Source: Pseudomonadota bacterium
Lineage (GTDB): Bacteria; Pseudomonadota; Alphaproteobacteria; Rhizobiales; MH13
Reading direction: 5' to 3'
Assembly (NCBI GenBank): GCA_039024915.1
Contig: JBCCPK010000001.1
Coordinates: 124,001-188,000 of the forward strand
Length of the DNA stretch: 64,000 nt
Part shown: positions 1,165 to 57,324 of the stretch, piece by piece
Layout: every line of letters begins with the position of its first letter
How positions within the stretch are numbered: position 1 is the stretch's first letter
Notes under the pieces: model-generated
What the model was told of the DNA's origin: nothing
What the model saw: only the letters and a program-made list of their open reading frames with translations
The model's database searches: none
Made by a program: the position numbers and the translations under genes

Positions 1165-2175
1165 TTACTGGATGATCTCAAGCTCGGGTTCAAACGCGTA
1201 CACCACGAAGGCGAAGGTCACGTCGTGGACAACGGGCTCGTCGTCGCGCATGACTGTGATGCTGCCGACATCGCGACCCTCACTCATGGTCGATGTATCG
1301 AGCGCCGAGGCTTGGCCTGCGGCAAAACGCAGTGTCACCCCTTCCATTTCGATCGTTCCTTCTTCGGCGATCTTGGCCGTGCTGATGGCGAAAACATTGT
1401 CGCCGTCACGCACCATCACCACACGCTCAAGCGGTGCGATGCCGTCGGGAAAAGGTCCATCATAAAGGAATGGCTGTGCGAGGGTATCGTAGCCCGGATA
1501 AGGGTTCTGGCCGTAGGGGCGGCGGAAATTGTTCGGGTCGTCGAGGACGAGTGCACTGGGATACTGCTCGGCGAACTGTTGCCAACTGATCAGCTTGCTG
1601 GGCAGCATTGTCAGTTCGGTTCCGGCATAGCTGCCAGCGATCGCTTCGCCGGAGAACTGCTGCCACCAGCTATCGGTCTGGCGGTCGTACATCACCAGGT
1701 CGGAGCGCCGCAGTTTGCCGGTCGTACCGAAATCAACCACCTCGCCATCAATCATGCGATCGAAGACAATCGCGGCGTTGCACAGCGGGCAATACGTTAC
1801 GGCAACCGGATCGCCAGCGATGACGTCGTTGACGATCTCATGAAAGGTCATCACGCGCAGCGGGTACCCTCGGGTTTCGCCCTTGTGCGTGAAGCTGAGG
1901 ATCGGGTCGCGCGGGTCGAGATGATCCACCTCCGCGACCGGCTCAAAGCGTGGGTTGTCAATGGGCGGGATGCCATCGCGCCGCGGTCCTCCGTCGAGGA
2001 TCTCACCCAGATCAACCGTGGATTGGGAGAAATCGGTTCGCCAACCCTCCGCAGCCCAACGGTCTGGGTTTGCGAGGGCCGGTATTGCCGTGGCCATCGC
2101 GACGAGGGCGATCATCGTGGCAATCGCAATCACCGAGATTGCGGTCTCGCATGGCGGTCGAATATGGCGCAGCAT
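1165..2175 (-). CDS. DUF3179 domain-containing exported protein
   Basis: A 336-residue protein with a hydrophobic N-terminal segment ending in IPALANPD, read as a signal peptide, followed by a DUF3179 domain covering most of the chain. Family-typical stretches are visible: PPIDNPRF, GYPLRVMTFHEIVND, the cysteine pair in VTYCPLCNAA near residue 130, and LYDRQT/DSWWQQF-like residues after it. The function of DUF3179 proteins is unknown; the CxxC and export suggest a periplasmic metal or redox role, which is inference. The ATG at 2175 has a good ribosome-binding site (AGGAG, eight bases upstream). The gene stands alone, and its upstream region carries three tandem palindromes (2293-2348), likely its operator. 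Confidence 0.88.
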   Translation of the reverse strand: MLRHIRPPCETAISVIAIATMIALVAMATAIPALANPDRWAAEGWRTDFSQSTVDLGEILDGGPRRDGIPPIDNPRFEPVAEVDHLDPRDPILSFTHKGETRGYPLRVMTFHEIVNDVIAGDPVAVTYCPLCNAAIVFDRMIDGEVVDFGTTGKLRRSDLVMYDRQTDSWWQQFSGEAIAGSYAGTELTMLPSKLISWQQFAEQYPSALVLDDPNNFRRPYGQNPYPGYDTLAQPFLYDGPFPDGIAPLERVVMVRDGDNVFAISTAKIAEEGTIEMEGVTLRFAAGQASALDTSTMSEGRDVGSITVMRDDEPVVHDVTFAFVVYAFEPELEIIQ

Positions 2176-2292: not shown

Positions 2293-2348
2293 TTGTCGCG
2301 ACAAGCAGGCCGATTTGTCGCGACAAAGTGGGGGTGTTGTCGCGACAA
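2293..2348. promoter_or_regulatory. three 12-bp palindromes at 22-bp spacing, candidate operator
   Basis: The perfect palindrome TTGTCGCGACAA occurs at 2293-2304, 2315-2326 and 2337-2348. Start-to-start distance is exactly 22 bases both times, so the three sites face nearly the same side of the helix. The intervening ten-base spacers differ from one another. The array lies 118-173 bases upstream of the DUF3179 start and behind the stop of the next gene, so a regulator of the DUF3179 gene is the natural reading. The site does not match the FNR/FixK, Fur, LexA or ParB consensus that I know. The cognate protein is unidentified. Confidence 0.65.
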
Positions 2349-2385: not shown

Positions 2386-2403
2386 ATCAGCTGAAAAGCT
2401 GAT
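2386..2403 (-). terminator. hairpin over the stop codon of the 2387-2908 gene, weak terminator candidate
   Basis: ATCAGCT and AGCTGAT form a perfect seven-base stem around a four-base loop. The hairpin spans the last codons and the stop of the upstream minus-strand gene. Only a short T run follows on the minus strand, so an intrinsic terminator is possible but weak. Confidence 0.3.
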
Positions 2404-2908
2404 CGACTGCATCTTGCGCGCGCATGGATGTTTCGCTGACCGGGAGCGGCGCTTCAACACGGGTGCTGTCCGTCCCGTTAATGATCGCGCTGGCCCGGTC
2501 TATCGCCGGACGAATCTCGCCGGCAATTATCGAGGTCAGGCGGTCGCTGACTGCCGGGTCCAACGGTTCGTCAGGCGACAGACCGGACAACAGGATCTGC
2601 ATTTCGCCGATCCAACCGTTCAGCTCGTCAACGACCGCTTCAAATCGCGTGCGCGGCTCATCGGGCGCTTGGGTGTAGGCGAGAACGGCGAGGTCCTTGT
2701 CGGCGAATACCGATTGCTTGAAATGCTCACAGTAGGACCGCGGCTCCCATTCCAGCACATCTTCAGCCATGTCGGGCATATCGGCGACCATCTCGATAAG
2801 CATCACCACCTCATTGAAATGGTTGAGATAGTCGGTCGCCAAAAAGCTTGCAGGGTTGATGTTGGCGGCAGCCAAGCGCTCCGGCGACAGGGTTGTGGTA
2901 CTGGTCAT
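2387..2908 (-). CDS. hypothetical protein, mostly helical, unrecognised family
   Basis: A 173-residue acidic protein with no signal peptide or membrane segment. I do not recognise the family with certainty. It begins MTSTTTLSPE and contains NINPASFLATDYLNHFNE, a run of acidic residues (DMPDMAEDVLEWEP) and a region resembling a small helical bundle, ending AQDAVDQLFS. Cysteine occurs once, in RSYCEHF. The frame could be extended to 2959, but ATG 2908 starts next to the recognisably coding part. The look of the sequence is that of a genuine soluble cytoplasmic protein: codon use matches its neighbours and no strong alternative frame exists. Nothing in the context points to a role. Confidence 0.72.
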   Translation of the reverse strand: MTSTTTLSPERLAAANINPASFLATDYLNHFNEVVMLIEMVADMPDMAEDVLEWEPRSYCEHFKQSVFADKDLAVLAYTQAPDEPRTRFEAVVDELNGWIGEMQILLSGLSPDEPLDPAVSDRLTSIIAGEIRPAIDRASAIINGTDSTRVEAPLPVSETSMRAQDAVDQLFS

Positions 2909-3037
2909 TTTGGGGTCGCATACACTCAAATATTTGCGGCTTGCCGGGAGTTTATCCAATAAGGGTTACAGAGCTTTGAACGGCGCTTTTGTTGGCGTCG
3001 CAGCCCAAAAGGGTCAAACGAGCAGCTGAGGGTAGCC

Positions 3038-12069: not shown

Positions 12070-12107
12070 TGGGGATCAAAGTCGCGGTTGCGGCAAAGAA
12101 ATACCGG

Positions 12108-55434: not shown

Positions 55435-57324
55435 CTATCGGCCGAAAAGCCGATCCAGCGCTTTTTTGTCGAGCTTCATGAACGTCGGGCGGCCATGGTT
55501 GCATTGCGCGGAGGCAGGCGTACGCTCCATCTGCCGCAGCAACGCATTCATTTCCTCGGTACGCAAACGGCGACCCGCGCGAACCGAACCATGACAGGCC
55601 ATTGAGCTTGCAACCCGTTTGAGGCGTGCATCAAGACGCTCCGATGTGCCCATTTCTGCAAGGTCATCGGCAATGTCGCGGACCAGCTGCGCGCCGTCAC
55701 ATGGCCCGAGCATGGCGGGCGTCTCACGAACCAGGACCGTCTCCGGGCCGAACGGTTCGACAACAAGACCCATTTTCGCAAGCGCGTCCGCCTGATCAAG
55801 CACCGTGGCAGCTTGCCCGGCAGGCAGCTCCACAACATCAGGCACGAGCAACGGCTGCGAGCCAACGCCATCACGTTCCATGCCCGCCTTGAGCTGTTCA
55901 TAGACCAACCGCTCATGGGCGGCGTGCGCGTCAATCAGGATGAGACCGTCGCGACTTTCAGCAAGGATGTAGGTCTCGTGGACATGGGCGCGGGCGGTGC
56001 CCAGTGGGTAGTCGTCGAGCGCCTCGGGCTCGTGGTGATGATCATCGGTCTGTCGCGACGATGGCGCATCGAGGCCGGACAAACGGGGGGTCATGGCTCG
56101 CCCATATGGCTGGGCCACCCTAACCTTATTCCAGTTAAAGTCCGGGGCGGAGTAAGCTGCCTGCTGCGGCGCTTCGAACCCGCCGGGGTTTTCCGGGCTG
56201 CTGGCGCCGGAACCCACCGTGAGGTGATTGAGAGCTTGCTGCTCAAGGCTCGCAGACGTCGCAAGGCCCGCTTCACCGAGGGCCGAGCGGATAGCAGAGA
56301 TCACAAGCCCCCGGACATGGCCAGGGTTCTGGAAGCGCACATCGGCTTTCTGCGGGTGAACGTTGACATCAACCCGCGTCGGATCGATGGCAATTGCCAG
56401 GACGATCGCCGGAAATCGGTCACGCGGCATCAGATCGCCGTAGGCTGCGCGAACGGCCCCCATCAGCAAGCGATCCTTAATTGGGCGATCGTTGATGATG
56501 AGATGGATGTCGCGGCTTGTCGCACGATGCCAGGTCGGCAGGCCAAGCCGCCCCTCAATGGAAAGCCCCTCTCGGCTTGCCAGCAATGGCCGCATGTTCG
56601 CATCGGCCTCGGGGCCAAAAAGCATGCGCATGCGCTGTGCGATCGCACTGTCGAACGGCAGCGCCGCATCGGCCGGCGGCAAGTCAAGGACAGTCCGTTG
56701 CCCCGACTGAAGCCGGAAACCCACTTTCGGAGCGGCCAAGGCGAGCCTTCGGACCGTGTCCGCGATGGCGGTTGTCTCCGCGCCGTCAGATTTGAGGAAC
56801 TTGAGGCGAGCGGGAACGGCGGCAAATAGCCTTTCCACACGCACTTCAGTCCCCTTGCGACGGGCGGCAGGGCGGGCAGACGAGATGTGGCCTGCATCAA
56901 CCCTTAGTTCATAGGCCCCGCTCGCGCCTTGCGAATGGGAGGTGACCGTCATCGTCGAAACGGCACCGATGGAGGGCAGCGCCTCCCCGCGAAAGCCAAG
57001 CTGTGTGATGTGCACCAATTCGTCATCGCCCAGTTTGGACGTCGCATGGCGCTGTACGGCCATCGCAAGATCATCCGCACCCATCCCGTGGCCATCATCG
57101 GACACGCAAACAAGTGCCTTGCCGCCCGCGTCGATCGTGATGTCGATCTGATGAGCGCCTGCGTCGAGGCTGTTTTCAACGAGCTCTTTGGCAACGCTGG
57201 CCGGCCGCTCGATCACCTCTCCGGCGGCTATGCGATTGATCAGGGAATCGGGAAGTGCACGGATGGCGGCGCGAACGCCCCGAACGTTGATGTCGGGCTC
57301 AGCTGCGGGTGCGGTCTTGGCCAA
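55435..57324 (-). CDS. mutL: DNA mismatch repair protein MutL
   Basis: A 629-residue mismatch repair protein. The GHKL ATPase domain has the RIAAGEVIERPASVAKELVENSLDAGA block and VSDDGHGMGADDL; the C-terminal endonuclease domain carries LIDAHAAHERLVYE, the variant of the metal-binding motif, and the terminal CNHGRPTFMKL. Both indicate an endonuclease-active MutL, as expected where MutH is absent. ATG 57324 is chosen as frame start; the real start may be the later PDSLINRIAAG region. Convergent with DUF2937. Confidence 0.96.
   Translation of the reverse strand: MAKTAPAAEPDINVRGVRAAIRALPDSLINRIAAGEVIERPASVAKELVENSLDAGAHQIDITIDAGGKALVCVSDDGHGMGADDLAMAVQRHATSKLGDDELVHITQLGFRGEALPSIGAVSTMTVTSHSQGASGAYELRVDAGHISSARPAARRKGTEVRVERLFAAVPARLKFLKSDGAETTAIADTVRRLALAAPKVGFRLQSGQRTVLDLPPADAALPFDSAIAQRMRMLFGPEADANMRPLLASREGLSIEGRLGLPTWHRATSRDIHLIINDRPIKDRLLMGAVRAAYGDLMPRDRFPAIVLAIAIDPTRVDVNVHPQKADVRFQNPGHVRGLVISAIRSALGEAGLATSASLEQQALNHLTVGSGASSPENPGGFEAPQQAAYSAPDFNWNKVRVAQPYGRAMTPRLSGLDAPSSRQTDDHHHEPEALDDYPLGTARAHVHETYILAESRDGLILIDAHAAHERLVYEQLKAGMERDGVGSQPLLVPDVVELPAGQAATVLDQADALAKMGLVVEPFGPETVLVRETPAMLGPCDGAQLVRDIADDLAEMGTSERLDARLKRVASSMACHGSVRAGRRLRTEEMNALLRQMERTPASAQCNHGRPTFMKLDKKALDRLFGR

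Follow-up and report, generated by a model that had tools for sequence, protein, structure and literature searches.

The three identical palindromes standing before a DUF3179 gene in this stretch of DNA raise the question of what they serve. In the original prediction they were regarded as sites of a dimeric regulator binding cooperatively, and as a lead to the function of the neighbouring gene. The window, that is the whole 64-kb stretch that was analysed (G000:C1:124001-188000), belongs to a source genome, G000, of 3.9 Mb in 35 contigs (97.63% complete). The predicted arrangement was confirmed: the 12-bp palindrome TTGTCGCGACAA (A unit) starts at 2293, 2315 and 2337, with start-to-start distances of 22 and 22 bp and unlike 10-bp spacers between the units (GCAGGCCGAT vs AGTGGGGGTG). 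The array lies past the stop codon of a 190-aa ORF and ahead of the DUF3179 gene, 118-173 bp upstream of the first base of the latter; an SRAP gene is also among the genes nearest to it. The features of the window are as follows:

2293-2304, no strand: A unit 1, exact match to TTGTCGCGACAA
2315-2326, no strand: A unit 2, match to TTGTCGCGACAA, with the extended word TTTGTCGCGACAAA at 2314-2327
2337-2348, no strand: A unit 3, exact match to TTGTCGCGACAA
2293-2348, no strand: three-unit phased array; exact copies stand at 21 places in the genome, this one included (20 without the place in RecG)
1165-2175, minus strand: DUF3179 gene (PF11376, E 6e-83), a neighbour and probably not the target of the array
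2387-2959, minus strand: 190-aa ORF for which Pfam gave nothing at E 0.001; 38 bp separate its stop codon from the array
56050-56061, plus strand: degenerate A unit CTGTCGCGACGA with two mismatches, within the predicted gene at 55435-57324 (minus strand)
56093-56116, plus strand: B-type unit ATGGCTCGCCCATATGGCTGGGCC, at a start-to-start distance of 43 bp from the degenerate A unit

Since only 0.08 exact copies of TTGTCGCGACAA are expected per 264 kb (both strands, third-order background), three copies within 56 bp are not due to chance. No other exact copy was found in the 64-kb window. When up to two mismatches were allowed, seven matches were found against 3.95 expected, and 13 of 100 shuffles reached seven; the four inexact matches are thus at chance level. 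Degenerate composites lacking an exact A copy were found once in the window (56050-56116, in the gene listed above, which we take to be MutL) and once in L181. Separately, another palindrome, CGGCTAGCCG, was enriched in G000 (12 copies against 0.75 expected, both strands, 460 kb). It occurs at six places (window positions 12105 and 44771; L176, L182, L183 and L186), of which three clearly fall within predicted genes, and is possibly another site family.

A search of the genome for copies upstream of other genes had been proposed together with the original prediction, and the word proved to be widespread. Exact TTGTCGCGACAA was found 32 times in the 3.9-Mb genome, compared with one match for the reversed control, and these copies form 21 places, nine of which hold two or three exact copies. 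Allowing one mismatch gave 51 matches against 15 for the control; the near-copies alone (19 vs 14) hardly exceed the control, and the word is therefore strict, with sites mostly perfect or absent. One place, in RecG (C13), was treated as chance and excluded from the place counts because its copy encodes what is presumably the normal RecG motif (LLVATTVVEVG), which leaves 20 places.

The distances between exact A copies within these places were 21 bp (five times), 22 bp (three times), 42 bp (three times), 43 bp and 44 bp (once each). Where the gap is 42-43 bp, it is occupied: L027 and L029 have a one-mismatch copy there, and L023 has a different unit. The mean deviation from multiples of 10.5 bp was 0.044 turn for the 13 distances of G000 and 0.024 turn for 26 distances of G003, a sister species of the same genus, whereas random distances give 0.25; distances inside one array are not independent in this statistic. 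Beyond a few bases, the eight short A-A spacers have no sequence in common. A scan of G000 (459 kb) and G003 (400 kb) for palindromic 8-mers repeated at 21-22 bp returned only GTCGCGAC, the core of the word; both matches were arrays already known, so that the scan says only that no other word behaves in this way there. The helical phasing of the original prediction is thus supported in both species and would agree with dimers aligned along one side of the helix; their cooperative binding stays a prediction.

The gene context of the places bears directly on the suggested regulator. Ten of the 20 places lie inside genes and ten between genes, as judged with a home-made ORF scorer, and at least three (L017, L025 and L033) are between converging genes. 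The arrays inside genes often encode FVAT- and CRDK-type peptides. For every one of the 20 places, one gene that contains or adjoins it was run against Pfam, and the neighbours share no function: they include DUF3179, a CofH-like radical SAM enzyme, a UPF0004/radical SAM protein (which we assume to be MtaB), MoeA, an aminotransferase class V protein (NifS-like), MaoC/mesaconyl-CoA hydratase, DUF192, an FGGY kinase, UxuA, NUDIX, YCII, LysR, peptidase M3 and others. The copies are thus not gathered in the promoters of related genes. The DUF3179 orthologs of the congeners G001, G002 and G003 are 74-75% identical, and none of the three has an A copy upstream. Absence of the array from such orthologs had been named in advance as the observation that would refute the prediction.

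An ordinary transcription-factor regulon, in which the array would serve DUF3179 and some 20 further operons as operator, would account for the perfect dyads, the phasing and the ten intergenic places, and a paired TTGTCGCGACAA at 21-bp spacing in Fodinicola does lie close before an apparent gene start. However, such a regulon is hard to reconcile with the ten places in genes, those between converging genes, the missing functional theme, the one-mismatch copies hardly above control, and the absence of the array from all three same-genus orthologs, and we consider it improbable. As a promoter regulon for DUF3179 it was rejected on the orthologs, the in-gene places and the missing theme; for the same reasons the array is not a lead to the function of DUF3179.

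The A units are not the only element of these places. Twelve of the 20 places have, in addition, a B- or C-type unit whose start lies 8-10 bp past an A copy. The words of these second units are TATGGCYNRGCCATATGGGCGG (B) and TATTCCGGCC (C) with variants, B also taking the form TATGGC..GCCATA; they were chosen by inspection of the very flanks in which they were then counted. In 150-bp flanks, ATGGCNNNGCCAT gave 14 matches on both strands, at seven of the 20 places, where 0.05 is expected from 460 kb of G000, while CCATATGG was present at eight and ATTCCGGC at seven of the 20 places (0.18 matches expected for each). The order A-N8-B recurs, and in places the similarity of B units extends over 30-40 bp, past the short core. 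By inspection alone, the A-to-B orientation has no clear relation to local GC skew or KOPS. In G003 a different partner is used, as 10 of 13 places carry TTGTTCC units (0.29 expected). The word GCCCATATGGGC was considered as a B unit common to the genus. With one mismatch allowed it gave, against control, 33/6 matches in G000, 31/1 in G001, 15/5 in G002 and 9/4 in G005, a member of another family; it was rejected in this role, the four G001 examples in 340 kb looking like ordinary coding sequence.

The distribution among relatives is narrow. Among 61 scanned genomes, the 60 other than G000 had zero to two exact copies of TTGTCGCGACAA each, with any copy at all in 15 of the 60. The phased pair GTCGCGAC-N13/14-GTCGCGAC was found in only four of 101 genomes (12 in G000, 10 in G003, and one each in G004 and G048), and its control gave zero throughout. 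G003 has its own arrays on the shared GTCGCGAC core: in 13 loci the distances are 20, 21, 32, 42, 43, 63, 64 and 84 bp, and a five-unit array with 21-bp steps lies within a HypF gene. No phased GTCGCGAC pair was found in the same-genus genomes G001 and G002 (G002 being 78% complete). A 340-kb sample of G001 held no clear substitute word, and a scan of the same 340 kb for near-palindromes at 21-22 bp gave one exact CTGGCCAG pair and no clear set.

The core is common to G000 and G003, and the edge and the partner unit differ by species. The extended pattern TTNGTCGCGACNAA was found 16 times in G003 (control 1), and all 16 copies read TTTGTCGCGACYAA on one strand; it was found eight times in G000 (control 2), and all eight read TTTGTCGCGACAAA; it was absent from G001 and G002 (0 in each). 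This one-base difference at the edge is best explained by a binder with a changed preference or by a homogenised repeat. The other core sites of G003 have looser edges and do not all fit TTTGTCGCGACYAA, the outer T/A pair is incomplete in 24 of the 32 TTGTCGCGACAA copies of G000, and the two copies of the G000 word in G003 are both single and outside arrays; these three facts count against the loading-site reading given below.

Orthologous loci were compared for 16 of the 20 places with G003; L023 was outside this comparison, L016 and L026 had no ortholog at E 1e-20, and L034 had an ortholog only in G001 and G002. A phased GTCGCGAC pair was present at the G003 ortholog in four of the 16 loci: the CofH-like gene (21 bp), the L020 gene (20 bp), L025 (64 bp) and L028 (63 bp). 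In the L020 gene the G003 pair lies, by interpolation, roughly 75-95 bp from the G000 site. No locus had a pair in G001 (0 of 16) or G002 (0 of 13). Two similar TTGTTCYACCATCGCCYGRT stretches were seen in G001, one upstream of DUF3179 (L041, G001:C97) and one inside MtaB (L036, G001:C79), and both loci correspond to loci with arrays in G000. Two candidate G001 versions of the word were tried. The first, TTGTCCSGGACAA, had been suggested by eye and was rejected, as it was not enriched (3 vs 10 in control). The two exact copies of the second, TTGTTCNACCATCGCC, were the two places from which it was designed (upstream of DUF3179 and MtaB), and its one-mismatch match reads as coding sequence and corresponds to none of the G000 array loci.

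The same alignments bear on the main rival explanation, a dispersed mosaic palindromic repeat, i.e. selfish DNA of REP/BIME or RPE type. According to it, units of 12-30 bp were copied into intergenic DNA and tolerant protein loops, giving each species its own families, and the 21-bp step arose from head-to-tail copying together with the keeping of the reading frame. When in-frame insertion of the RPE type was checked, five loci (MtaB, MoeA, the CofH-like enzyme, the NifS-like protein and L020) had extra G000 residues at the array in comparison with at least some orthologs, and an extra stretch was found between genes at L017. Insertion fits these residues, and copying fits both the recurrent A-N8-B order and the similarity of B units beyond their core; the strong restriction to single species and the existence of degenerate members also agree with a repeat. 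On the other hand, the site regions in MaoC, SnoaL, L019 and L024 align to orthologs without gaps, as is expected of sites made by substitution, and in MaoC one A copy is common to G001 and G000 while the second G000 copy lies 22 bp away. Other observations against the repeat are the short A-A spacers alike in only a few bases, the 22-bp steps inside genes at L021 and L029, which break the reading-frame period, the extended sites that differ at one edge between species despite some shared loci, and the even spacing of the places described below. On balance the mosaic repeat is a serious contender, quite possible without being likely.

Known repeats resemble the arrays in part. RPEs of Rickettsia are palindromic repeats that sit in frame within conserved protein genes and also occur in intergenic DNA, and they are 105-146 bp long with long stem-loops (PMC2229807). 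The G000 palindromes likewise occur inside and between genes; they do not form 105-146-bp copies with terminal inverted repeats but keep 12-bp cores with short second units, and their short A-A spacers differ. REP/BIME elements are frequent between converging genes. They are also short grouping palindromes that are found inside genes in several species (PMC3733652). The G000 arrays differ from REP/BIME elements with their RAYT partner in having helical phasing with unlike spacers. In addition, a REP/RAYT origin was rejected because PF01797, the Y1/RAYT transposase, had no match in the 97.63% complete G000 assembly, while the control was positive in five of 14 genomes.

The places are also distributed over the chromosome more evenly than random positions. 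In G000 they are over-dispersed, with a shortest interval of 54.8 kb (P 0.013) and a CV of 0.46 (P 0.020), the null being positions drawn at random from the nine contigs concerned (3.57 of 3.90 Mb). For 12 places of G003 this test gave a shortest interval of 128 kb (P 0.006) and a CV of 0.39 (P 0.004), and with the L109 place added P was 0.005 for the shortest interval and 0.014 for the CV. The test was devised after the G000 positions had been seen and was applied to G003 afterwards, and the two species share some loci. Chromosome-wide spread and a strict word would also suit a signal for a DNA motor or an uptake machine, KOPS-like or uptake-sequence-like. Such a signal is very improbable here: a perfect palindrome lacks polarity, known uptake sequences have copy numbers far above some 20 places, and a 400-kb stretch of G003 contains a KOPS-like, one-sided word of its own. 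In that stretch (G003:C1:1000001-1400000) GGGCAGGGG is enriched (24 vs 1.7, both strands) and GGG[CA]AGGG is strongly one-sided (2 vs 50), the pattern expected of FtsK-orienting sequences.

A strict short palindrome in tens of copies, placed regardless of promoters and often in genes, agrees with site sets of the SlmA/Noc/MatP type. Noc binds many chromosomal sites, the words of Noc and matS are palindromic, and the Noc and MatP/matS sets consist mostly of single sites conserved over wide groups. The G000 and G003 sets differ from these in that they diverge within one genus. MatP also binds a specific word, matS, at many chromosomal places and acts on the chromosome, and the SlmA site of Escherichia coli, which serves nucleoid occlusion, is a 12-bp palindrome, GTGAGTACTCAC, occurring 50 times, mainly in coding regions (PMC3116907). 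SlmA sites and the G000 set are alike in the 12-bp palindrome, the tens of copies and the placement in genes (PMC3116907). They differ in word, host group and array form: G000 has arrays of up to three exact units and G003 of five, at 21-22 bp and with second units, unlike SlmA sites.

Outside the genus the arrangement is rare. A search of genome contigs (84,980 species by description, with our own genome possibly left out) for the exact phased pair returned two records. One, in a Saprospiraceae MAG (L064:600-950), is a tandem array of units of about 21 bp alternating TTCCAAGA and TTGTCGCGACAA. In the other, from Fodinicola (L065:6780-7150), two copies of GTTGTCGCGACAAC, 21 bp apart, stand close to an apparent ATG on its upstream side, and this paired site is likely a local operator. 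Both resemble G000 in having TTGTCGCGACAA at 21-bp steps; unlike G000, they come from other phyla with one matching stretch each, and the spacers of the Saprospiraceae array are repeated. No match for the phased pair was found in viral contigs. A literature search, which covered the literature in part, found no paper with TTGTCGCGACAA, and none of the titles and abstract openings in this partial coverage describes such arrays.

Taken with this evidence, the reading that we lean towards, while holding it slightly short of probable, is that the arrays are loading sites of a putative DNA-binding protein that acts on the chromosome, with an anatomy like that of SlmA sites and a specificity drifting between species. 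Some 20 phased arrays, spread fairly evenly over the chromosome, would load a sequence-specific dimeric protein cooperatively on one face of the DNA. Alternatively, a pair of proteins might be involved, one for TTGTCGCGACAA and one for the TATGGC..GCCATA or TATTCCGGCC units. The loaded protein would act on the chromosome, e.g. in nucleoid occlusion, anchoring or compaction, and not on the adjacent promoter; the sites would turn over within and between genes, and the preferred word would change between sister species. A conserved housekeeping role is not supported, since G001 and G002 have no phased pair. Loading sites are placed only tentatively before the mosaic repeat because some loci look like insertions and the binder is only putative. 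A more far-reaching version, possible if rather doubtful, would be a chromosome-organising system of helically phased composite arrays at fairly even distances, in which the extended word (TTTGTCGCGACAAA vs TTTGTCGCGACYAA) and the second unit differ in concert through fast co-evolution of sites and binder, the arrays being written by substitution at the peptide's cost.

To our knowledge, few bacterial groups are known to have chromosome-organising proteins with sequence specificity, and little is understood of how the site sets of such proteins originate and change. In the present case one phased set exists in different versions in two sister species, at partly shared locations, and none is seen in two congeners, so that it could be traced how such a set is gained, is lost and changes its specificity. 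The arrays in MoeA, MtaB and the CofH-like enzyme suggest that protein sequence can yield to a function at the DNA level or to a selfish repeat.
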